A DNA stretch of 23,598 bases. Origin: a virus. The position numbers and the translations under genes were made by a program. Each line of letters opens with the position of its first letter. Positions within the stretch are counted from its first letter, which is position 1. Shown piece by piece: positions 291-23,407 of this stretch. The stretch covers positions 1 to 23,598 of IMG/VR virus record IMGVR_UViG_3300025809_000126, one strand, 5' to 3'. The notes beneath the pieces were generated by a model. It was not told the origin of the DNA, searched no databases, and saw only the letters and a list, made by a program, of their open reading frames with translations.

Positions 291-601
291 TTTTTTCCCA
301 AGTCAATCGACGGCAATACCGCCGCGACAAAGGCAAGCTGAAACTCGATCATTTCCTCTGAACCGCCGGTGATGAATGCGTAGCTTTCATCCTCGGATAC
401 CTTGACGCCTGCCTCCGCCATGAAAAGCCGATGCACGTCTGTCAGGTCAATCGGATCGGCACCGCCCTTGATGCAGGCATTTGCCAAGTGAAGAGCATGA
501 ATGCCCTTAGCCTTGATGCGGCGCAGCAACGCCAGTGACGGGGTGATTGTATAATCCTCACCCTGCCACGCTATCGCCAGTTCCCTAAAGACCTCGCTCA
601 T
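236..601 (-). CDS. Tail assembly chaperone (gpG-like)
   Basis: This 121-aa protein sits directly after the major tail protein, where lambda gpG-type chaperones lie, and shares one base with its stop (TGATG). The N-terminal part is a compact helical domain (residues about 1-95). The zero-frame C-terminus turns lysine-rich and ends KRGKAKIET. No strong Shine-Dalgarno is visible, which fits coupled translation. At codons 102-104 (GGA AAA AAG) it carries a double slippery heptamer that moves some ribosomes into the -1 frame. The zero-frame product is probably the abundant free chaperone and the fusion the minor form. Family recognition is by context and size rather than by an unmistakable motif. 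Confidence 0.8.
   Translation of the reverse strand: MSEVFRELAIAWQGEDYTITPSLALLRRIKAKGIHALHLANACIKGGADPIDLTDVHRLFMAEAGVKVSEDESYAFITGGSEEMIEFQLAFVAAVLPSIDLGKKSKPRPTTTKRGKAKIET
257..299 (-). promoter_or_regulatory. Programmed -1 ribosomal frameshift signal
   Basis: On the minus strand GGGAAAAAAG (299 to 290) contains two in-phase slippery heptamers: G GGA AAA (299-293) and A AAA AAG (296-290). Five bases downstream is a perfect 7-bp GC stem, GCCCCGC (284-278) with GCGGGGC (263-257), around a 14-nt loop. This is the canonical layout: slippery site, short spacer, stem-loop. The -1 frame stays open for 82 codons and encodes the second chaperone domain. Confidence 0.9.
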
Positions 602-1002
602 CAGGATGCCGTAATCGCGCCAGAGCTTTCCAGAGAAAGCGTGAACGTAATTGTGTCGGCTTGTTCGCCTGTCGCCTCAAATGAGGTGATAAAGAACGAT
701 CCTGTATAAGTCGCAAAGCTGCCCATATCAATTTCAAAGGCATGAAGCGCGCTATCAGATGTAGCCGCCGCCGCCAATGCAGAGAATGTCGATGCCGTTG
801 CAACGCCCGTGCAGGACAGCGACATGCTCTTGACGCCGATGTCGTCAAGGTAGGTCCGAACGCCCGCATCATCCTTGTCGGTGATGTCGATGGCCTCGTT
901 ATTGAACGTCATACTGTCAGTGCGGGCACCCGCGACTACAACATATGTTGATCCATCCGACGCATATTTGATCCTTAGATCACGTCCTGCTTCTGCTGCC
1001 AT
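601..1002 (-). CDS. Major tail (tube) protein
   Basis: A 133-aa protein of the TP901-1/gene-transfer-agent-like major tail protein type, the subunit that polymerises into the tail tube. The sequence opens with a short beta-rich segment (AAEAGRDLRIKY) and ends with a strand-rich region (DTITFTLSLESSGAITAS), as is usual in this family. It is small, Ser/Thr/Ala-rich and lacks cofactor or catalytic motifs. The start at 1002 has AAGGG seven bases upstream. It is preceded by a 58-base gap holding a promoter-like dyad that is also found before the capsid operon, which fits a protein needed in hundreds of copies. Order with the tail terminator upstream and chaperones downstream supports the call. Confidence 0.82.
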   Translation of the reverse strand: MAAEAGRDLRIKYASDGSTYVVVAGARTDSMTFNNEAIDITDKDDAGVRTYLDDIGVKSMSLSCTGVATASTFSALAAAATSDSALHAFEIDMGSFATYTGSFFITSFEATGEQADTITFTLSLESSGAITAS

Positions 1003-1021: not shown

Positions 1022-1060
1022 CTTTGCAAACTTGTATCACGATTTTGGAAACTTGCAAAG
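1022..1060 (-). promoter_or_regulatory. Leftward promoter-like dyad before the major tail protein gene (copy 1)
   Basis: Minus strand: TTGCAA (1058-1053) as -35, a 16-base spacer, and TACAAG (1036-1031) as -10. It is bounded by the inverted repeat CTTTGCA (1060-1054) and TGCAAAG (1028-1022). The 39-base block closely matches the block at 6153-6192: both share CTTTGCAAGTT, then CAAA, CGTG, ATACAA and TGCAAAG in order. It lies in the only sizeable gap in the tail operon. Confidence 0.65.
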
Positions 1061-3728: not shown

Positions 3729-4178
3729 TCAGGTTGCCGCAGTACCGGCGTCAATTGTGGCCGTAGCCATAACCGCGCCTTTGTCCTTGCGAGCATGAAC
3801 GGCTACAACGGCGTTTGTGCCGGTTGTGCCGGTTGCCACGATCCGCACATAACGCTTGCCGCCAACGTAGCCAATAGAACCTACCAGCGTATCGTCGGCG
3901 TCGTCGCTTGTGACAGTCAGCGCGCTTTCAAGTCCAACCAGATCAGCGTCCACAACTGCCGTTGCATCAGCCGCCGCAGTTGTATCGCTTTCCTGAACCT
4001 CAAAAGCAAAGCCAGATGCAGTTCCAGCATCTGTAACCGTACCAGTGGAGACTGTGAATGTCAGGGCCTCCCAGCCTTGCATATCAATCCAATCGCCCGC
4101 CGATGGCGTAACGCCCGACAGTGTAGCGGATAAGCCTAAGCCAAATTCCGCGTTGTTTCGCATATCAAACTGAGCCAT
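3729..4178 (-). CDS. Putative capsid decoration protein
   Basis: 149 aa, starting at 4178 in a TAATG overlap with the capsid gene stop and preceded by AAAGGTGG. Ala/Thr/Gly/Val-rich and beta-prone: 'WIDMQGWEALTFTVSTGTVTD' followed by 'FAFEVQESDTTAAADATAVVDADLVG' and 'GYVGGKRYVRIVATGTTGTNAVV'. The pattern of a 'VQESD' strand followed by a 'GYVG.KRYVR' strand is common in a phage family encoded next to HK97-type capsids and usually annotated as hypothetical or decoration-like. Direct coupling to the capsid gene suggests near-stoichiometric production, consistent with decoration. The function is inferred from position and composition. Confidence 0.6.
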   Translation of the reverse strand: MAQFDMRNNAEFGLGLSATLSGVTPSAGDWIDMQGWEALTFTVSTGTVTDAGTASGFAFEVQESDTTAAADATAVVDADLVGLESALTVTSDDADDTLVGSIGYVGGKRYVRIVATGTTGTNAVVAVHARKDKGAVMATATIDAGTAAT

Positions 4179-5404
4179 TATGCTGCCACCTTTCCGATAA
4201 CTGCCGCGTCAAAGGACGTAACATCGCCGCCAACGCGCTGGGTTGTGTAGTAGGTCACGAAGCCTTTGTTGGTGAATGGGTCACGCAACACTTGCAATCC
4301 AACGCGATCCACGACCGTGTAGAAGGACGCAAAGTCAGCGTAGACAATGCTCAGAGCGTTTGCCGCAACTGCTGGCATATCGTCCATGAACACAACTGAC
4401 TTGCCCAAAAGCTGGATTGTCGCCTGACCGTCACGCAAAAGAACCGGGCTGAAGAAGTAATTGTCATTGCCCTTCAACTTGAGCGCCGCGCCAAAAGTGG
4501 TGCGTTTCATACCCCAGATTGCGCCTGCCTGATAATCTTCTTTAAGTGCGTTCTGCACCTCGATCAGACCATCTGCATTCATCGCCGCCGCAGACCCCAT
4601 GTTCACTTGATGCAGTGCGTTGCGTTCATAGGTTCCACCGGTCGATTGTGCCGCGTATGTCAGGAACCCACGCGGCTTGCCAACGCCATCGCCAGAGACG
4701 AATGCGGTGTTTTGCGTGCGTGAAAACTTGTCTGCGACCTTGCGGGAAAGCCATGCCTCAACGTCAAGATAGCTGTCCTCAATCATTTCGGTGGTCATGC
4801 GAGGGTCGGATTCGATCTTGTGCGCGGTGATAACCTTCTGAGCAAGCTGAGGCGTGTCAGTCTGGCCACTGGATGCACCTTCACCAACCCAGCGAGCGGT
4901 GGCTTCCTGATCGTCGATCAGAATGTCGATGCTTTTTGCGCCAGTGCGCTCCACGTTGGCAACTTGGCGAACGGGAGACGTTTCAAATACGCGGTCAATT
5001 ACCATAGTTGAAAGCTCTGGGCGAACCAGATAACCGCCATCTGGGTTCACGTCTGTTGACATGCCCTTGATCTCGATGCCCTCGGAACCGGCTTTGAAGC
5101 CTTCCGGCAAAGTGCCGTTTGACATGTATTGCTTAAACGCATCTCGGTGCTTTTGCTCAAGATCAGCGTCCATGCCTTTGCTTTCGCCGCCGTTTGGTCG
5201 GTTCATCGCGGCTTCAAGTTTGGCTTGCTTGGTGTTCAAGGCTTCCACGTTTTTCGTGATTTCCTCAACCATGCGGTTGTGCTTTTCTTCTGTGATGACG
5301 TCCTTTGGCGCGGATGCTTTCAAGGCGTCCACTTCGGAACGAAGTTCAACAAGGGTCGGGTTGATTTTTTCAACAAGCCCTTTGATTTCTGTCAGGTCGG
5401 TCAT
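4178..5404 (-). CDS. Major capsid protein (HK97 fold)
   Basis: 408 aa. The first roughly 75 residues are a charged heptad-rich segment (VEELRSEVDALK-like) typical of the HK97 delta domain, which serves as internal scaffold and is removed by the prohead protease. The rest has HK97 capsid landmarks: 'GGYLVRPELSTMVIDRVFETSPVRQVANV', the E-loop region 'RWVGEGASSGQTDTP', the spine-helix segment with 'DSYLDVEAWLSRKVADKFSRTQNTAFVSGDGVGKPRGFL', and a C-terminal P-domain ending 'VTYYTTQRVGGDVTSFDAAVIGKVAA'. The start lies immediately after the protease stop with GGAGG eight bases upstream. A promoter-like dyad precedes the protease-capsid pair. Confidence 0.95.
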   Translation of the reverse strand: MTDLTEIKGLVEKINPTLVELRSEVDALKASAPKDVITEEKHNRMVEEITKNVEALNTKQAKLEAAMNRPNGGESKGMDADLEQKHRDAFKQYMSNGTLPEGFKAGSEGIEIKGMSTDVNPDGGYLVRPELSTMVIDRVFETSPVRQVANVERTGAKSIDILIDDQEATARWVGEGASSGQTDTPQLAQKVITAHKIESDPRMTTEMIEDSYLDVEAWLSRKVADKFSRTQNTAFVSGDGVGKPRGFLTYAAQSTGGTYERNALHQVNMGSAAAMNADGLIEVQNALKEDYQAGAIWGMKRTTFGAALKLKGNDNYFFSPVLLRDGQATIQLLGKSVVFMDDMPAVAANALSIVYADFASFYTVVDRVGLQVLRDPFTNKGFVTYYTTQRVGGDVTSFDAAVIGKVAA

Positions 5405-6112
5405 TTAATGAGCCTCCATATTTGACAAGGTTTCAGTCAAAAGTGCTTTGAGTTCGTCAACGTCTCGCTGAACATTCTCGGGATCGGTCGCGTTGTCTGC
5501 GTCTCGCAGAACATCAGACCGTGCCTTCCATGCGCCACCCGCCATAGCTTTCGCCATGCGGTTTGAGTGGCCCATATCCTTAAACGCGCGCTCGATGTGG
5601 CGCTGCGTAATATCCTCGGCTTTCATCGCGTAGATGCCAGCCATTTCGTTCATAGGGAATGTGACAATGCTGGTTTCCCAGAGGTCCAGCTTGGTAAGCC
5701 TACGAATGTCTTTTTCGGTGTCCATCTCGTACTCTTGAGTGCGATATCCGATGCTGAGACCTTCGATGCCGCCCATCTCGACCAAGTCGGCGATTTCGCC
5801 CGCTTTACCGCGTCGGCTTACTCGGCCCTTGATAAATAGGCCGTTTTCATCTTCACCCATTTCATCCCAAGCGCCGATTGGCTGAGATGGATCGTGGTTC
5901 CAAAGCATTTTAGGTTTGCGACCGCTGGCAATGCACGCCTTGAATGCGCCGGGCATGACAACATCATTGCCTTTGTCAATGTTGCCAAAGACAGAGCCAT
6001 AGCCAGAAATTGTGAGGTAATCGTCGTTTTTGCCCTCAACTTTAAGTTCAAGGGTCGCCATCTTTATTTCAAGCGGTTCGCCGCCATCTTTGCGTGCGAT
6101 GAATTGCAGCAT
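5405..6112 (-). CDS. Prohead protease (HK97 family, peptidase U35)
   Basis: 235 aa. The family core starts at about residue 22 with 'LELKVEG...YLTISGYGSVFGNIDKGNDVVMPGAF'. The catalytic His is in 'LWNHDPSQPIG' (H73) and the catalytic Ser in 'IEGLSIGY' (S120), with the expected 'LWETSIVTFPMN' block after them. This serine protease cleaves the capsid delta domain and itself during head maturation. The C-terminal 50 residues are charged, helical and probably self-removed. The ATG at 6112 is used here; Met18 would also leave the whole catalytic core intact, so the exact start is uncertain. The stop abuts the capsid gene start. Confidence 0.93.
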   Translation of the reverse strand: MLQFIARKDGGEPLEIKMATLELKVEGKNDDYLTISGYGSVFGNIDKGNDVVMPGAFKACIASGRKPKMLWNHDPSQPIGAWDEMGEDENGLFIKGRVSRRGKAGEIADLVEMGGIEGLSIGYRTQEYEMDTEKDIRRLTKLDLWETSIVTFPMNEMAGIYAMKAEDITQRHIERAFKDMGHSNRMAKAMAGGAWKARSDVLRDADNATDPENVQRDVDELKALLTETLSNMEAH

Positions 6113-6152
6113 TTAATGATCCATCTATGGGCCTCGGGCGTCTCACGACGGC

Positions 6153-6192
6153 CTTTGCAGATTGTATAACACGTATTTGCTAACTTGCAAAG
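6153..6192 (-). promoter_or_regulatory. Leftward promoter-like dyad before the protease-capsid operon (copy 2)
   Basis: Minus strand: TTGCAA (6190-6185) as -35, an 18-base spacer, and TACAAT (6166-6161) as -10, five of six consensus bases. It is bounded by the inverted repeat CTTTGCA (6192-6186) and TGCAAAG (6159-6153). It lies just after the cassette terminator at 6208-6232, so the capsid operon needs its own start. It shares CTTTGCAAGTT, CAAA, CGTG, ATACAA and TGCAAAG in order with the element at 1022-1060. Confidence 0.7.
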
Positions 6193-6258: not shown

Positions 6259-6411
6259 TTACGGTTTAATGTGTTTTCGAAGAACACTCAAGACAAAAAG
6301 GCTTTCAGAGATTGCAACGTTTGTTTCGGCTTCAAACTCTGCTATAGCGACCTTCAACGCGGCCTCCTCATCGGCGTTTAAAGCGATGCGGATATATTTA
6401 CGCTTGGTCAT
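6259..6411 (-). CDS. Ribbon-helix-helix-like small DNA-binding protein (50 aa)
   Basis: The ATG at 6411 shares an ATGA overlap with the stop of the 138-aa gene, and the frame ends at TAA 6259-6261. The protein begins MTKRKYIRIALNADEEAALK and ends LSVLRKHIKP. It looks like a minimal ribbon-helix-helix (Arc/MetJ/CopG-like) protein: a short basic N-terminal strand (KYIRIAL), an acidic helix (NADEEAALKVAIAEFEAE), a turn around TNVA, and a second helix (ISESLFVLSVLRKHI). Such proteins are dimeric repressors, often autoregulating their operon or acting as antitoxins or anti-CRISPR-associated regulators. The gene sits second in a two-gene cassette closed by a strong terminator. The fold is inferred by eye. 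Confidence 0.72.
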   Translation of the reverse strand: MTKRKYIRIALNADEEAALKVAIAEFEAETNVAISESLFVLSVLRKHIKP

Positions 6412-6824
6412 TTCAATTCCTCCATCGGAATTATCAACATATCGTCATGAATGATGCATCGGCCAAGAGAAACTTCACCCTGCGTTACGTCGATTTCCGC
6501 CATCTTGGCAACGCCCCATGATTTATTGGTGCCGCGATATTCTTTGATGCGCGGGCTTGAAAGCGTGTAGCCGCTCCCATCATTTACGCGCCTCACCACC
6601 ATAACACCTTTTCCAGACATATCCGCAAATCCAAATGCAACCTTGTCACCCAACAGAAGGCCGCATTTCTTCATGACATCTACGCCAAGCCTAATGGTCG
6701 TTTGGGATTGGTCCTTTCCCTCTTTGGTTCTGTGTCTTGTGTTTGAAATTCGCACCCCAGAAGCGGTTTGCCCCGATGAACAGCCGTTTCGAGTGGGCTT
6801 GACCCATTGAATATTCAGTTTCAT
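6408..6824 (-). CDS. Unknown cassette protein with AbrB-like segment (138 aa)
   Basis: Starts at 6824 (MKLNIQWVKPTRNG) with GAGG five bases upstream; a longer in-frame start exists but has no such site. Not recognised as a known family. Residues about 40-80 (TTIRLGVDVMKKCGLLLGDKV, then GKGVMVVRRV) resemble the swapped-hairpin beta pattern of AbrB/SpoVT or MraZ-like DNA-binding or antitoxin domains. The N-terminal 35 residues are polar and basic, and the C-terminus is a mixed strand region ending IIPMEELK. It is coupled by ATGA to the 50-aa gene. The cassette lies between the head morphogenesis and protease genes, bracketed by terminators, so it is probably a moron rather than a structural gene. 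Confidence 0.75.
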   Translation of the reverse strand: MKLNIQWVKPTRNGCSSGQTASGVRISNTRHRTKEGKDQSQTTIRLGVDVMKKCGLLLGDKVAFGFADMSGKGVMVVRRVNDGSGYTLSSPRIKEYRGTNKSWGVAKMAEIDVTQGEVSLGRCIIHDDMLIIPMEELK

Positions 6825-6880
6825 AACATCCTCATGTGTTTGAGTTTCATAGCATCTCACAGCTACGCAACCACAATACA

Positions 6881-6916
6881 AAACCCGCGCTAGGTGTCAA
6901 TATTTGGCGCGGGTTT
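6881..6916. terminator. Bidirectional rho-independent terminator after the packaging/portal genes
   Basis: A perfect 10-bp inverted repeat AAACCCGCGC (6881-6890) / GCGCGGGTTT (6907-6916) with a 16-base loop. The plus strand continues TTATTTTGTTG and the minus strand continues TGTATTG, so both directions have a U-rich tail. For leftward transcripts it ends the terminase-portal-gp7 operon 46 bases after its last stop and precedes the moron cassette. Confidence 0.85.
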
Positions 6917-6962
6917 TTATTTTGTTGCGTGTGTTTGTCTTTTGTTGCCTTTCGGCGTCCGG

Positions 6963-9000: not shown

Positions 9001-10379
9001 TAGAGCACTCCGAAAACTTGATCCGACCCGTGGCAAATATCCATTACTGCATCCATCATCGGGTCAAGCGTGTCATCATGCGCCCCTCTAGGGAACGCAC
9101 TGGCCTCGGCCAGCATGTCGGAAAGATACGCTAAATCTCGCAACAAGACAACGTTCCCACTCTCGATTATCGGAGCGGCGTCATAAGCCCGCGTTATTTT
9201 GTCAGTGTTTCTTTGGATTGGTGTGATCGGGATACCCTCGCGCCTGAGCGTTTGGATCAGCCCTGTGCCGCTTACCTTGTCCTCAACCTTGAATGCTCGC
9301 AACGTCCCCATGCCCGTCGTCGTTGCGTGCTTTCGCCAAAAGGCCCGCGACATTTCCAACAGTTCCGGCGCTTCCCACTTGCCCCGAACCATGTCTAAAA
9401 GAACCGCTTGCCCATCTTGTGATTTCCCCCAGCACTGAAGAACCGAAAAATCGTTTTCTTGCTTCGTCTTTTGCGCCGTGTCGGCATAGATAGATCGCCA
9501 CTCTATGCGCGGCGCAACAGATAGATACTTCCACCACTCGTCCTTGAAGATGCCTCCGCCTATCGGCGCTGGACGCTGCATGTATTGGCCTGCAAAAACA
9601 TAACTGTTCGACCGCTCTAGCCTGTCCAACATTTCTGGTGGAAACTGGTCCGCCCAAAAACTGGACCCATCCACATTTCGGGCGGGAATGTTTAGGTGGT
9701 CCCAGTGCTCTCCATTGCCGCCAGACAGCAACCATCCTGCCAAGTCCATTTCGTGCAGGCGCTGCATAATAATAATAATCGGCGTGTCTGGTCTGTTTTT
9801 TCGGCTTTCCATTGTTGTTGAAAACCAGTCCAATACATTCTGCCGCATGTTTTCGCTATTACCTTCGCCAGCCTTGTGCGGATCGTCAATCAGTATGCAG
9901 CCGCCAAAGTGATCGCGCATCTTGCCAGCGCCGTATCCCGTGATCGTGCCGTCTGACCCCGTGGCGTAAACAATGCCGCCTTCATCGGTGCGAAATTCGT
10001 CTTTTGCGTTACTGTCGCCGCGAAAGCGCGGTTTGCCAAACACATCAGCAAAAGCTTCGTGCTGCATAATTGCACGCGCCTCCCATGTGTTGGTCGTCGC
10101 AAGTCGCTTGCTGTAGCTGGCGTGAATAAACTCGCTGTCTGGAAAATTTCCCATGCACCATGCAAGAAAGTTCTTTACGGCAAGTTCTGTTTTTCCAGAG
10201 CGCGGCGGGATGTTGATAATCAGGCGATTTGTTTTGCCTATCACGACGCGCTCTAGCGCGTTGCAGACAGCCTCGTGATGTGGCGCAACCTTAAACTCAG
10301 CAGACTTGCGTGCCGCAAACATATACCGCGTAAAGGCCAGCAAGTCCGTTCTGAGGTCGGCAACCTGACTTGGTGTCAT
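9000..10379 (-). CDS. Terminase large subunit
   Basis: 459 aa. The N-terminal ATPase has Walker A PPRSGKTE (residues 58-65), Walker B CILIDDPHK with acidic residues D165/D166, and the coupling segment IIIIMQRLHEMDLAG (201-215). The C-terminal RNase H-like nuclease has the first acid in 'SIYADTAQK' (D300) and the last in 'GAHDDTLDPMMDAV' (D435/D436). The 'FPRGAHDDTLD' ending is typical of this terminase family. It cuts and pumps DNA into proheads. The ATG overlaps the stop of the homing endonuclease gene (ATGA), so its translation is now coupled to an apparent invader gene. All catalytic motifs are intact. Confidence 0.97.
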   Translation of the reverse strand: MTPSQVADLRTDLLAFTRYMFAARKSAEFKVAPHHEAVCNALERVVIGKTNRLIINIPPRSGKTELAVKNFLAWCMGNFPDSEFIHASYSKRLATTNTWEARAIMQHEAFADVFGKPRFRGDSNAKDEFRTDEGGIVYATGSDGTITGYGAGKMRDHFGGCILIDDPHKAGEGNSENMRQNVLDWFSTTMESRKNRPDTPIIIIMQRLHEMDLAGWLLSGGNGEHWDHLNIPARNVDGSSFWADQFPPEMLDRLERSNSYVFAGQYMQRPAPIGGGIFKDEWWKYLSVAPRIEWRSIYADTAQKTKQENDFSVLQCWGKSQDGQAVLLDMVRGKWEAPELLEMSRAFWRKHATTTGMGTLRAFKVEDKVSGTGLIQTLRREGIPITPIQRNTDKITRAYDAAPIIESGNVVLLRDLAYLSDMLAEASAFPRGAHDDTLDPMMDAVMDICHGSDQVFGVL

Positions 10380-11182
10380 GTAATAATTCCGCCCCGCTTG
10401 CGTGCATCTTCGCCATCAATCCAATCCCAATCGTGACCACAACTTGACTTGTATTTGCCATTGCAAGCCATTGCGATGTTGTTTGGCGCGGCTTTGGGCC
10501 ACCCGTTTTCCCTCATATAATTTGCCGCTGCCCTAGTGCTAGAAAAAATCAATCCGTCATCACGGCGTGGAAACCTGTCGGCTGTGCTCAAGTGCTTCTT
10601 TAATTTTGCCTCTCTCCACTTGTCCTTGTATCCCGGTTCGGCCCAAGTTTTTGACGCAGCCTTGCTCGCTGTCTTTCGATATTCTTCCGTTTTCTTTGCG
10701 GCCAATATTCCGGCTTTTGCGTTTGGGTGCATTGCCATACCAACTTTTGACTGAGAAATCTTGCGACGGACATCTGGCGTCATAGATGCAATTATGCCAA
10801 AACGGTGCTTGAGCTTAACATCTGGGTCCGCATGTGCATTTTTGATGCTGGTGCGTTGCGCTGCCTTGGCTTCATCAGACAGCACAACGCACCCCTCACC
10901 ACCGCACGTCATGTTGTAACCCGCAGGCGACATAGTTTGGATGTCGGAAATTAGCTTAACTTCAAAGTCTAAGGCTTTCTCGCGGCTGCAAAATGACGCA
11001 ACTTTTTCAACCAAAAATGATTTTGAGCCGTATTTTCTAATGGCCTTGTGAAAAACTAAATTCGACCCGCGCCTAGCGTCCCTTTGGTGCGAGCGCCATC
11101 GGGCATCAACATCCTGAGACGTAAAGCCAACGTAAGACTTGCCGGTTTTTTCGCATGTAATTTTGTAACAATGATAATCCAT
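10376..11182 (-). CDS. GIY-YIG homing endonuclease inserted between terS and terL
   Basis: 268 aa. The GIY-YIG domain covers residues 1-97: YKI (6-8) and YVG (17-19) replace the GIY...YIG pair, with Arg28 in 'DARWRSH', catalytic Glu74 in 'DFEVKLI' and 'GYNMTCGGEG' at the end, as in group I intron and free-standing phage enzymes. Residues about 100-200 are basic repeated helices of the NUMOD3 type ('S.EAKAAQRTSI', 'TPDVRRKISQSKVGMA', 'EYRKTASKAASKTW'). The C-terminus ('IFSSTRAAANYM...NNIAMACNGKYKSS') resembles a NUMOD1-like recognition module. It probably cleaves uninvaded terminase loci and spreads by repair. Cys at the Gly position of 'GIY' is divergent, but the key residues are present. Confidence 0.92.
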   Translation of the reverse strand: MDYHCYKITCEKTGKSYVGFTSQDVDARWRSHQRDARRGSNLVFHKAIRKYGSKSFLVEKVASFCSREKALDFEVKLISDIQTMSPAGYNMTCGGEGCVVLSDEAKAAQRTSIKNAHADPDVKLKHRFGIIASMTPDVRRKISQSKVGMAMHPNAKAGILAAKKTEEYRKTASKAASKTWAEPGYKDKWREAKLKKHLSTADRFPRRDDGLIFSSTRAAANYMRENGWPKAAPNNIAMACNGKYKSSCGHDWDWIDGEDARKRGGIIT

Positions 11183-11821: not shown

Positions 11822-12978
11822 TGGAATGTTTCCCCTGTTGCCTCGAGCGTTGCCTCTTGGCCTGTGAAGTCCTGCCACCGCTTGATGATGACGTCAGCGA
11901 ACTTTGGATCAAACTCCATAATGTAGCCGTCAATGCCGTGCTTTTCAGCGGCAATAAGTGTTGACCCAGAACCACCAAAAAAGTCTGCGATAGAATGCGC
12001 CGACAAATTGAACCGCTTAATGATCCACTCGACCAATGACACCGGCTTCTGTGTCGGATGGACTCTGTTTGTCTTTTCACTTGCCTGTGTAAACTGCCGA
12101 ACAACGCTTCTGAAGTTAGCCCACGCCAGTTCGCAGTCCGTTTGGTCCGAACCGCCGTTGTTCTTGTCCCAAACCAGCCAACACTCGCTGTCTGGCAATA
12201 CGGAGCAGTAATAGTTCGCACCCCACCAAATTTGTTTCGCGCTTGGATAAAGCCCATTGATCAGCGCGAACGCATCCTTGGCGATGTCGGGGTTGTCATC
12301 CCCAATGATGTCCGTGCCGTAATTTTTCTTCAAAACAGATGACTTTGAAACAGCGTTCATTCCATATGGAGGGTCCGTGTGGATCAAGTCAGGCGTCTGC
12401 CCATCCATCAGCTTATCAACCGCGTCAATGCTGGTGCTATCGCCGCACATCAAGCGATGCCGCCCAAGCAACCAAACATCACCCTCAACCGTTACAGGCA
12501 CTTCCGGCACTTCCGGCACCGCGTCCTCGTCGGTCAGCCCTTCGGATGGATCGTCTGCCAGCAGGTTGTTAAGTTCGTCATCGTCAAAGCCCGTCAGCGA
12601 AAGGTCAAAATCCAAATCACCGAGTTCGCCCAATTCAATTTTGAGCATGTCATCGTCCCAGCCCGCGTTGAGCGCCAGCTTGTTGTCTGCGATGACGTAT
12701 GCTTTCTTTTGCGCGTCGGTCCATCCTTCGGCAATCATGCAAGGAACGTCGATGATGCCCAGCTTTTGCGCTGCCATGATCCGGCCATGCCCAGCGATTA
12801 GGCCACCGTCCGGGTCGATCAGAACCGGGACCGTCCAGCCCCATTCCTTGATGCTTGCCGCGATCTGCCCTACCTGCTCGTCGCTGTGTGTGCGGCTGTT
12901 GCGGGCGTATGGGATCAGGTCGGCAACCTTGCGGCGTTCCACTTTGTCGGCGGGCCATTGTGTTTTGTCATTTGTCAT
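11803..12978 (-). CDS. ParB-like nuclease domain fused to DNA methyltransferase
   Basis: 391 aa from the ATG at 12978, which overlaps the stop of the 110-aa gene (ATGA). Residues about 17-105 form a ParB/sulfiredoxin-type domain ('VADLIPYARNSRTHSDEQVGQIAASI', 'GGLIAGHGRIMAAQKLG', 'YVIADNKLALNAGW'). An acidic linker follows. The methyltransferase part has motif IV DPPY (202-205) before motif I 'ADFFGGSGST' (331-340), the beta-class order of N6-adenine or N4-cytosine enzymes, and 'HPTQKPVSLVEWII' between them. Such fusions are common in phages and plasmids and probably protect phage DNA from restriction or alter its regulation. The target sequence cannot be read from the protein. Confidence 0.93.
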   Translation of the reverse strand: MTNDKTQWPADKVERRKVADLIPYARNSRTHSDEQVGQIAASIKEWGWTVPVLIDPDGGLIAGHGRIMAAQKLGIIDVPCMIAEGWTDAQKKAYVIADNKLALNAGWDDDMLKIELGELGDLDFDLSLTGFDDDELNNLLADDPSEGLTDEDAVPEVPEVPVTVEGDVWLLGRHRLMCGDSTSIDAVDKLMDGQTPDLIHTDPPYGMNAVSKSSVLKKNYGTDIIGDDNPDIAKDAFALINGLYPSAKQIWWGANYYCSVLPDSECWLVWDKNNGGSDQTDCELAWANFRSVVRQFTQASEKTNRVHPTQKPVSLVEWIIKRFNLSAHSIADFFGGSGSTLIAAEKHGIDGYIMEFDPKFADVIIKRWQDFTGQEATLEATGETFQCKADE

Positions 12979-13307
12979 TGCGTCACTTCGCTTTCTTTTT
13001 TCTTTGTCCAGTGAACAACGCCTTTGATATTTTTCTTGATGACGGTGCCTCGGTTGACGTCTCGGCTTAGCACGCATCGCACTGTCCACGCTGTGTGGTT
13101 TGTGGCTTGCACGATCTGCAATGTTGTGAGGAACTTGTCTGTGAGGGCTGCGCGGATTTCTTCTGTTGCGCCTGTTCGCTGTCCGCCTTTTCCGTTGTTC
13201 AGGATTATCGCTTTGTTGCGCTCTCTGATTTTGGCTGCGTCTGCCATCATTGCTGCGCGCCGTGATTCGGCTGTTGGGTGTTCTGCTAGAAATTGTTGGA
13301 CGTTCAT
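12975..13307 (-). CDS. Small winged-helix-like DNA-binding protein
   Basis: 110 aa. The ATG at 13307 overlaps the HD gene stop (ATGA). A strong GGAGG six bases upstream is formed by the last HD codons. The N-terminal 50 residues are helical and basic. Residues about 58-100 (FLTTLQIVQATNHTAWTVRC, then SRDVNRGTVIKK and VVHW) follow the pattern of a winged helix: a helix, a recognition helix, then a hairpin wing. It may regulate this operon or assist the methyltransferase gene immediately downstream. No specific family is recognised. Confidence 0.7.
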   Translation of the reverse strand: MNVQQFLAEHPTAESRRAAMMADAAKIRERNKAIILNNGKGGQRTGATEEIRAALTDKFLTTLQIVQATNHTAWTVRCVLSRDVNRGTVIKKNIKGVVHWTKKKESEVTQ

Positions 13308-19419: not shown

Positions 19420-21080
19420 TGACTTTTGAATTGCGAGATTATCAGCGCGCTGCCGTTGATGGCCTTTATGATTACTGGGCGAAGGGAAAGGGCGAGCATC
19501 CTCTGATTGTTGCGCCGACCGGTTCAGGCAAGACTGCCATAATTGCTCAAATCATTAAGGACGCCATGTCGTTTCCTGACACGCGGGTGATGGTTCTAAC
19601 GCACGTCAAAGAATTGCTTGAGCAAGGCGCCGAAGGGCTGCTGCGCATGTATCCAGAAGCTGATTTGGGTTTTTATAGCGCAGGCATTGGGCAGAAAACC
19701 ACCAGCCGCCCCATCACTTTTGCAGGCATTCAATCGGTTTGGAACAAGGCCAGCGAGTTCATCCCGGCCCCTGATCTGGTGCTGATTGATGAGGCTCACA
19801 TGCTGCCGCGCAATTCGCAGACGCGATATGCTAAGTTCATTGCTGATCTTCAGGTGTGCAATCCGGCTGTCAAAGTTGTTGGCTTGACGGCAACGCCTTA
19901 TCGGTTGGACAGCGGCGAGTTGCACAAGGGCGATGGAGCGCTGTTTGATGGCATTGCTTATGACATTCCGGTTGGCGATTTGATGGAGCAAGGCTGGCTT
20001 TCAACGGTGGTGAGTAAATCAGCGCATCGCCAGATTGATTTGTCTGGTGTCAAAAAGCGCGGAGGTGAATACATTGAAGCCGATCTGGCGCGCGCCGCAT
20101 CCGATCCTGAATTGGTGGCGGAAACGGTTGATGAGATCGTGACGCTGGGCTCGGATCGCAAGGCATGGTTGGTTTTTTCAAGCGGCGTAGATCACGCACA
20201 AATGATTGCCGAGGGCATAGAGGGCCACGGACACTCTGTTGGCATTGTAACGGGCGCGTTGGGCGCGTCTGAGCGCGCCAAGGTCATTGGTGACTTCAAG
20301 GCTGGCCGGTTGCGATGCATTGTGAACTGCAACGTGCTGACAACTGGCTTTGATGCGCCGTCTGTTGATCTGGTTGCCATCGTAAGGGCAACCGCCAGCA
20401 CAGGTCTATATGTGCAGATCGTTGGGCGCGGCACGCGATTGCATCCCGGCAAGGACGATTGTTTGATTTTGGATTTTGGCGACAACGTAGCAAGGCACGG
20501 TTTCATTGATGATGTGAAGCCAAAGAAGGCTGGAACGGGCGAGGGCAAAGCGCCTGCCAAGAAATGCCCTGATTGTGAATACATGATTGCAACAGCCGTG
20601 CGGATCTGCCCGAACTGCGGCCATGAATTTCCACCGCCTGCGCTGAACCATGGAAGCACGGCGTACAACGGCGCGATGCTTTCATCGCAGGTTCAAGCGG
20701 AATGGCTGGACGTGACGGGCGTGCAGTATCAAAGATGGAAAAAGCGCGGTGGTGGTGAGGGCAAGCCCGACACGCTGCGGGTGTCATACACCTGCGGCCT
20801 GACGGTTGTGAGCGAATGGCTCTGCCCGGATCACGGCGGATATGCTGCAAGCAAATTCCATTCTCGACGGGCCGTGCTTGGTGCGACGGCTGACACGCTG
20901 GATGAATGTCTTGATGAGTGCGATGGCTGGCGGGTGCCGGGTCGCATCAAGGTTATGCCGGATGGCAATTTTCACAAAATCATGCAGTTTGATTATGCCG
21001 AGGAGGCAAGAATTGAAAAGGTGGTGCGCGATATGAGCCGCGAGGAAATTGACGCAATCATGGATGAGGTGCCGTTTTGA
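19419..21080 (+). CDS. DEAH-box superfamily 2 helicase with zinc ribbon
   Basis: 553 aa. SF2 motifs in order: Q-region 'LRDYQRAAVDGL', motif I APTGSGKT (32-39), motif II DEAH (124-127), motif III 'GLTATPYR' (155-162), motif V 'LTTGFDAPSVD' and motif VI 'QIVGRGTR' (333-340). A four-cysteine zinc ribbon C383-x2-C386...C397-x2-C400 follows. The rest of the C-terminus is an uncharacterised 150-residue domain ending 'REEIDAIMDEVPF'. Resembles phage helicases of the UvsW/restriction-type-III group, probably remodelling forks or recombination intermediates. It shares one base with the nuclease stop (TAATG), indicating coupled synthesis. Confidence 0.93.
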   Translation: MTFELRDYQRAAVDGLYDYWAKGKGEHPLIVAPTGSGKTAIIAQIIKDAMSFPDTRVMVLTHVKELLEQGAEGLLRMYPEADLGFYSAGIGQKTTSRPITFAGIQSVWNKASEFIPAPDLVLIDEAHMLPRNSQTRYAKFIADLQVCNPAVKVVGLTATPYRLDSGELHKGDGALFDGIAYDIPVGDLMEQGWLSTVVSKSAHRQIDLSGVKKRGGEYIEADLARAASDPELVAETVDEIVTLGSDRKAWLVFSSGVDHAQMIAEGIEGHGHSVGIVTGALGASERAKVIGDFKAGRLRCIVNCNVLTTGFDAPSVDLVAIVRATASTGLYVQIVGRGTRLHPGKDDCLILDFGDNVARHGFIDDVKPKKAGTGEGKAPAKKCPDCEYMIATAVRICPNCGHEFPPPALNHGSTAYNGAMLSSQVQAEWLDVTGVQYQRWKKRGGGEGKPDTLRVSYTCGLTVVSEWLCPDHGGYAASKFHSRRAVLGATADTLDECLDECDGWRVPGRIKVMPDGNFHKIMQFDYAEEARIEKVVRDMSREEIDAIMDEVPF

Positions 21081-22816: not shown

Positions 22817-23085
22817 CCGATCGCAAGCCCTACGGCATCACCGAGCATGACATCCTACGCAATCAGCGCGCCAACGTCTGCTACATAGAAACAATCACGC
22901 GCAGCCAGCCATCGAAAGAGGTGCGCAGGCAGGCAGATGATTACCGCGTGACATCAGGCTTTTACTGGCCCGCGTTTGCCGCCTTGGTGATTATCTTCAT
23001 TGCTGCGCTTGTCGCGCTCTTGCATTTCGATCCAATCGGCAAGCTGGCCGCGCATCGCTATGAGGTGCAAAATGGGATTTATTGA
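22813..23085 (+). CDS. Small single-pass membrane protein
   Basis: 90 aa, starting in an ATGA overlap. The first 55 residues are polar and charged and would be cytoplasmic under the positive-inside rule (KEVRRQADDYR just before the membrane). One clear transmembrane segment follows: FYWPAFAALVIIFIAALVAL, then a short tail (HFDPIGKLAAHRYEVQNGIY). There is no signal peptidase site. Small single-pass phage membrane proteins may act in superinfection exclusion, lysis control or host takeover, but nothing in the sequence picks one. The gene overlaps the next by 14 bases. Confidence 0.72.
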   Translation: MTDRKPYGITEHDILRNQRANVCYIETITRSQPSKEVRRQADDYRVTSGFYWPAFAALVIIFIAALVALLHFDPIGKLAAHRYEVQNGIY

Positions 23086-23407
23086 ACTTTACAACATGGG
23101 ACTGAGTGGCCCGGAGGTCGGCAACAGGCTGGGCATTTCAAGATCAGTCATACATGGAATGTTGACGCGCGCCAATCGTGATGGTCACGTTGTTTATCCA
23201 AGGAAATCTGAAAGCTACTCATACGACAAGATGAAGCTGTGCGGCATTAGTCGCGGATCAATAAAGGATGTGGTTCGTAATACCGATGAAGATTTTGAAA
23301 ATTGGCTGGCAAATTGCGTGATTGAAATGCAATGTGAAAGCATATCTGAATACATCCGCGAAACGCTGTTGGAAAAATACTACAACGAGGTGCATGACAA
23401 TGGATAA
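23072..23407 (+). CDS. GcrA-like helix-turn-helix protein
   Basis: 111 aa from the ATG at 23072 (MGFIELYNMGLSGPEVG), with GAGG six bases upstream. The N-terminal HTH 'LYNMGLSGPEVGNRLGISRS' continued by 'VIHGMLTRANRDG' closely follows the GcrA pattern ('LW..GLS..QIA..LG.TRNAVIGKVHRL'). GcrA is an alphaproteobacterial cell-cycle regulator that reads methylated DNA with sigma-70. After a basic stretch, a second HTH-like helix pair (MKLCGISRGSIKDVVR) and an acidic C-terminal helix follow. The phage version may tie phage transcription to host cell cycle or methylation state. It lacks the usual leading 'W' residues. Confidence 0.68.
   Translation: MGFIELYNMGLSGPEVGNRLGISRSVIHGMLTRANRDGHVVYPRKSESYSYDKMKLCGISRGSIKDVVRNTDEDFENWLANCVIEMQCESISEYIRETLLEKYYNEVHDNG

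Follow-up and report, generated by a model that had tools for sequence, protein, structure and literature searches.

Candidate promoter-operator blocks built of TTTGCA boxes precede the capsid and tail operons of probably roseobacter-type phages

To our knowledge, late transcription in uncultured alphaproteobacterial, and probably roseobacter, phages has been little charted. The question of how such phages start the messages of their virion genes is raised by a viral contig of 23.6 kb (23,598 nucleotides; the window, by which we mean this whole stretch of DNA), in which the minus strand encodes the late genes, from about 13.9 kb down to position 1, and the plus strand the early genes, from 14.4 kb. 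Two related blocks, each bounded by inverted CTTTGCA/TGCAAAG repeats, stand among the late genes, and a first-pass annotation had taken them for a dedicated late promoter with a dyad for a phage regulator. We sought to establish what these blocks are, how widely they are conserved and what might read them.

The pattern CTTTGCA-N25/26-TGCAAAG occurs at 1022-1060 (block 1) and 6153-6192 (block 2), with no further copy in the window. When the spacing is relaxed to 20 to 30 nucleotides the same two places alone are recovered, against no match in 100 shuffles (0 expected), so that the shared blocks and their inverted repeats are real. On the minus strand, which is the coding strand of the late genes, they read CTTTGCAAGTTTCCAAAATCGTGATACAAGTTTGCAAAG and CTTTGCAAGTTAGCAAATACGTGTTATACAATCTGCAAAG. 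Block 1, the putative promoter/operator of the major tail protein gene (601-1002, minus strand; phrog_1407, E 8e-25), fills the gap from the stop codon of the tail terminator to the start of the major tail protein, about 20 nt below it. It comprises a first TTTGCA box (1054-1059), which by sequence and position weights overlaps a -35 element TTGCAA at 1058-1053, a degenerate second box, TTTCCA (1046-1051), that is TTTGCA in most relatives, an extended -10 of the form TG-A-TACAAG (1031-1039), and a right box, TTTGCAAA (1023-1030), covering a start site that the position of the -10 predicts at about 1024.

Block 2, likewise on the minus strand, is the putative promoter/operator of the protease-capsid operon, as judged from its sequence and its conservation in relatives. 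It is placed between an intrinsic terminator at 6233-6214 (AGGCCGCCTTCGGGCGGTCT followed by a T-run) and the gene of the prohead maturation protease (5405-6112; phrog_80, E 4e-52), which opens the capsid operon and is followed by that of the major capsid protein (4178-5404; phrog_10, E 1e-64). In relatives, GGCGGTCTTTTTTTG is likewise found directly upstream of the block. Its first TTTGCA box (6186-6191) overlaps the -35 TTGCAA at 6190-6185, its second box is again degenerate (TTAGCA, 6178-6183; TTTGCA in most relatives), its extended -10 is TG-T-TATACA (6163-6171), the first box and the -10 being assigned from sequence and position weights, and its right box TCTGCAAA (6154-6161) covers the predicted +1 at about 6156. 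These details refine the first-pass annotation in several respects. Of the placement before the tail tube and capsid genes, the part concerning block 1 stands, whereas block 2 first meets the protease and only then the capsid gene. The reading TTGCAA-(16/18)-TACAA is kept as TTGCAA-16 for block 1, but the 18-bp spacing to TACAAT in block 2 gives way to the conserved register of 16 with an extended TG. The right arm is indeed an arm of the dyad, and it also covers the predicted start site. Elsewhere in the window, a gene for a GIY-YIG endonuclease (10376-11182; Pfam PF01541), probably a homing endonuclease, lies between the terminase genes.

To gauge how far the blocks are conserved, we retrieved from IMG/VR 66 loci with relatives of the capsid protein; when only the arms were searched for, most of these loci showed the block, again at the two known places. 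We also picked regions only by homology of the protease or the tail protein and scored them for at least two exact boxes around TGnTA. By this measure the block is present in 34 of 43 unique protease upstream regions and in 13 of 30 unique tail-protein upstream regions, and in none of the shuffled regions. All 13 tail regions of the orthologous lineage (at least 83% identity to one of two reference tail proteins) carry it at the orthologous position, and the 17 regions that lack it come from other lineages, whose tail proteins reach no more than 56% identity. A gene-blind scan of 2.9 million IMG/VR viral contigs with the consensus returned 92 stretches. In nearly all cases that could be judged, the first downstream gene encoded the protease, tail protein or tail terminator, and the proteases included some only about 42% identical to their nearest reference. 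Scans of whole contigs recovered exactly two promoter-type sites in each of three near-complete phages, G001 (37.7 kb), G002 (36.5 kb) and G020 (38.7 kb). The motif search thus bears out conservation in dozens of relatives, a group of uncultured marine phages, before both the protease-capsid operon and the orthologous tail-tube gene. The first-pass annotation had also held that relatives with intact genes and no conserved block would speak against its proposal; some such cases do exist, namely the capsid relatives L032/L033 and L065, where the genes are intact and the block is absent, and the tail proteins of other lineages. A BLAST comparison of the consensus block with named phages gave no convincing match.

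The consensus anatomy that emerges is CTTTGCAA-C/G-TTTGCA, 16 bp, an extended -10 YGTGnTATAAn and then TTTGCAAAG over the +1, with the first box overlapping the -35 element and the second lying inside the spacer between -35 and -10. Aligned on TGnTA, 82 unique sites give C-TTTGCA-A-N-TTTGCA-R-NNN-Y-G-TG-N-TATAA-N-T-TTGCAAA, in which 75 sites have TTGCAA/G 16 bp from the -10 hexamer and 7 have it 17 bp away, and in which, the alignment being anchored on the pattern, the boxes, TG and TA approach 2 bits against less than 0.4 in the flanks. Since this alignment requires the pattern, the independent test comes from 74 sites picked by the arms alone: 69 of these carry TGnTA inside the arms, and the remaining 5 are symmetric sites read on the opposite strand. 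Counted from the predicted start, the tandem, near-palindromic boxes of the late promoters, spaced by 8 bp, have TTTGCA at about -35 to -30 and about -27 to -22 and the inverted TTTGCAAA at about -6 to +2. Some relatives add a fourth box (TTTGCAACTTTGCA ... TTTGCAAAGTTTGCAAA or TTTGCAAAGTTGCAAA), and where it is present the whole element becomes a dyad centred on the -10; these fuller copies are exact dyads of paired 8-bp-spaced boxes. A T at -7 occurs in 9% of the 82 sites, and some relatives devoid of the left boxes have TATACT or TATATT. At the expected start, about 7 nt below the -10, there is a purine-rich AAA. The sites thus display what is expected of sigma-70 promoters, namely a TTG -35 and a TA -10 separated by 16-18 bp, the optional extended TGn, and a frequently absent T at -7. 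We regard it as very probable that the blocks are sigma-70-type promoters, and as probable that the boxes constitute a protein-binding operator, both assessments being drawn from sequence.

At the protease block a conserved hairpin begins just below the predicted start. Protease leaders open with GGCYGYY-GUGA-RRCRNCC immediately below the right box, and in the window this is GGCCGUC-GUGA-GACGCCC (6136-6153, minus strand), where the protease-capsid mRNA is predicted to begin. Across 9 distinct sequences all six pairs are kept throughout (100% paired) and three of the six show paired changes, 12 cells being altered in both partners, none in one partner only and none broken; shuffles reach neither this pairing nor this score. 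In other relatives, TTTGCA promoters of tail genes are followed by a related hairpin, GAACGUC-GUGA-GAC-U-GUUC (once with GCGA), for which 4 sequences show 2 double changes; block 1 of the window lacks a leader hairpin of this kind. A covariance model finds matches almost only directly below TTTGCA promoters, including the window itself at 6119-6153 (E 1e-12, the window being one of the 10 sequences from which the model was built), and no Rfam family matches. Thermodynamic folding of the window leader gives a z of -0.6; as folding alone is not decisive, the case for the hairpin rests on covariation. On that ground the stem-loop is conserved as RNA, its location at the 5' end depending on the predicted start. 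Below it, CCCUUAGAUGGA (in the window CCCAUAGAUGGA, 6119-6136) is conserved around the Shine-Dalgarno sequence; it can form a small CC..GG hairpin and may be where the GNRA loop docks. The conserved blocks, the terminator upstream of block 2 and this structured leader at its predicted +1 support the proposal that a dedicated promoter with a dyad stands before both the tail-tube gene and the capsid operon and restarts transcription within the late operon.

The -10 features and the early module point to a host that is probably of roseobacter type. The primase of the early module is 47% identical over 97% of its length to that of the Roseobacter phages CRP-901/902, and genes for the ATPase, DUF669, helicase and VRR-nuclease follow the same order in CRP-902. 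More than 60% of alphaproteobacterial sigma-70 promoters lack a T at -7 (PMC8407463), so that its occurrence in 9% of our sites fits such a host, and the Caulobacter promoter consensus is TTGaCgS / GCTANAWC (PMC8144410), the -10 part of which agrees well with the phage GnTATAAC. The sole cellular match consisted of two phage contigs in a Verrucomicrobiales bin (JARGNI01; loci L083/L198 and L197), with capsid proteins 82% and 88% identical over parts; because 56 related genomes have no match, these are probably mis-binned phage DNA. As a further observation, the Pseudanabaena phage Pan4, reported from a cyanobacterium, encodes a helicase (L251 25267-26649) 83% identical to that of G002 together with GTA-like tail genes, and its true host may merit checking.

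What, then, reads the boxes? Control by one of the window's own small regulators, as the first-pass annotation had envisaged, finds no support, for their distribution does not follow that of the block, and no gene other than those of the virion is common to all carriers. We rejected the 50-aa ribbon-helix-helix (RHH)-like protein (6259-6411), with homologues in few relatives only (47% identity in L040, 58% in L064), the 110-aa winged-helix protein (12975-13307), found in no relative, and the GcrA-like protein (23072-23407), with two distant matches only. The near-complete carriers share no regulator; their common genes are virion genes only, and these are also present in relatives without boxes. 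The RHH-like ORF belongs to an insertion (6259-6881) of this ORF and another of 141-157 aa between the minor head protein and block 2, which is absent from most relatives; upstream of these genes, on the plus strand at 6880-6917, a strong terminator-like hairpin of 17 pairs (AAAACCCGCGCTAGG...GGCGCGGGTTTT) could act on both strands. The missing third of the window phage could hold another regulator gene. The alphaproteobacterial regulator PhaR/AniA, which has TGCA-rich sites, was set aside, its published sites being TGCA-N-TGCA-like palindromes of different spacing, and we found nothing relevant in the literature on TTTGCA(AA) sites in phage promoters or Rhodobacterales. A protein that reads a constant block while the phage regulators change is most simply one of the host, and we take the factor to be conserved and probably host-encoded.

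We lean towards the reading in which each block is a late promoter/operator cassette used by the host sigma-70 RNA polymerase, its boxes being bound by a conserved, probably host-encoded factor that holds the promoter off early in infection; that the promoters are late is judged from gene content. The host polymerase would start the protease-capsid and tail-tube mRNAs at the blocks, the terminator above block 2 cutting off upstream transcription before the restart. Dimers of the factor would bind the 8-bp-spaced near-palindromic boxes and thereby cover the -35, the spacer and the +1, until replication of the phage outnumbered the factor and released the promoters late; the leader hairpin would then keep the abundant capsid mRNA stable. 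Repression by occlusion, relieved as phage DNA multiplies, is the part of this scheme to which we give an even chance. This reading also has to face Pan4, which has no TTTGCA boxes, and CRP-902, which shows no tandem boxes in the half scanned for them.

Related boxes occur outside the late genes and bear on the direction of control. An array, TTTGCAnnTTTGCA-N6-TTTGCAnnTTTGCA, stands right after the stop codon of the ssb gene, before the helicase or other early genes, in G002, G004, G005, G022 (where it is partly degenerate) and L198. It amounts to four or five TTTGCA boxes in L087 7674-7707 (G002 26674-26707), L092 (7921), L091, L182 (G022) and L198, with an extended -10 like TGATAGCAT at 21 nt, and part of it is flanked by an inverted repeat GGTCAG/CTGACC (CGGAC/GTCCG in G005). 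A pattern scan recovered 30 double-tandem stretches. In 9 of 11 unique arrays with a 20-bp pair period, a TGnTA stands 20-21 nt downstream of the final box, which would put the boxes in an activator-like position, at about -70 to -36. Where the middle spacing is 7-8 bp (a pair period of 21-22 bp), no TGnTA is seen at that distance, and these arrays may be of another kind. No tandem boxes were seen in the half of CRP-902, which has the same early module, that was scanned for the tandem form, and BLAST of the array against phages and plasmids gave no convincing match. A degenerate array-like stretch on a Pseudosulfitobacter plasmid (CP069018, 180451; L230 4001-4033), about 600 bp upstream of an H-NS-family gene, may be due to chance.

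These arrays lend weight to a different account of the late blocks, according to which the boxes recruit a factor that, late in infection, switches on an extended -10 promoter too weak by itself, in the manner of T4 middle promoters. T at -7 is scarce in the box-bearing promoters, and some relatives without the left boxes have TATACT or TATATT; the scarcity suggests a weak core, might indicate that an activator uses the boxes, and is the strongest point in favour of activation, the main rival to repression. Yet at the late promoters the second box lies in the spacer and the right box on the +1, positions that would block polymerase, and a good TTG -35 is kept at a fixed 16-bp spacing; we consider activation rather improbable. 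That the promoters are plain constitutive ones of the host, with arms incidental to their strength and no regulator at all, would explain why the core is a complete sigma-70-type promoter and why the tail-gene relatives L060 and L068 have a TGnTA-like -10 without boxes. This is very unlikely, given that the second box, the right box and, in fuller copies, the fourth box are strongly conserved where polymerase does not read, and that symmetric four-box copies exist.

It is likewise unlikely that a phage-encoded regulator such as a small RHH protein reads the boxes, though the 8-bp spacing of TTTGCAAA-like boxes made this family attractive and a profile search located early-region genes for RHH-like proteins of about 50 aa in nine genomes or loci (G001, G004, G005, G020, G025, G098, G107, G109 and L198). 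We set the family aside on account of its operators, since the promoters of these genes carry other repeats (TTTACGTC/GTAAAGAC or GTATTGAT), and of its replacement in G002. The proteins differ strongly among themselves, and the window's own 50-aa gene is sporadic. In G002 and G004, whose virion genes are largely 84-99% identical and whose TTTGCA sites are of the same kind, a Cro-like gene occupies in G002 the place of the RHH gene. The exchange can be located at the start of the early operon, where an RHH gene (L091 8270-8521; G004 27270-27521) and a Cro-like HTH gene (L087 1453-1680; G002 20453-20680) alternate between otherwise close relatives.

The repressor reading of the late blocks and the activator-like arrays may be combined, if only tentatively, in a cross-phage regulon of one host DNA-binding protein, acting from a repressor-like core position at late promoters and from activator-like upstream arrays at ssb-helicase, so that early and late genes would be timed by a single factor titrated during replication. 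We think this rather doubtful on present sequence comparisons; if true, phages with different replication modules would share one host timing factor. Irrespective of this, the block is a sharply defined, portable promoter-operator cassette, partly joined to a covarying leader hairpin, that marks the starts of capsid and tail operons. Its 40 bp could serve as bait for fishing out the regulator. Were the factor a host protein, many phages would have converged on one host switch for their virion genes.

Comparison with known systems places the cassette among several familiar designs. RHH dimers of the MetJ/Arc type bind tandem 8-bp palindromic boxes, and the phage operators resemble theirs in having near-palindromic boxes, with 8-bp spacing, in tandem over the promoter; they differ in that the boxes are split across both sides of the -10 and that no RHH gene tracks them. 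In T4 middle promoters a MotA box at -30 replaces the -35 contacts and is combined with an extended -10. The phage blocks similarly join a phage-specific box near -30 to an extended -10, but they keep a TTG -35 (TTGCAA/G, at 16-17 bp) and add a second tandem box and an inverted box on the +1, and no MotA-like gene was recognised. Stabilising 5'-terminal stem-loops are described for the ompA and papA mRNAs in works cited in PMC3997798, and the leader hairpin, also short, is comparable in standing only a few bases from where an abundant mRNA is predicted to begin; unlike these, it is GNRA-capped, covaries across phages in two related stem types and is known here from sequence. With alphaproteobacterial sigma-70 (RpoD) promoters, finally, the blocks share the TTG -35, the 16-17 bp spacer, a GnTATAAC/G-like -10 and the rarity of T at -7, whereas their invariant extended TG and symmetric TTTGCA boxes lie outside that consensus.
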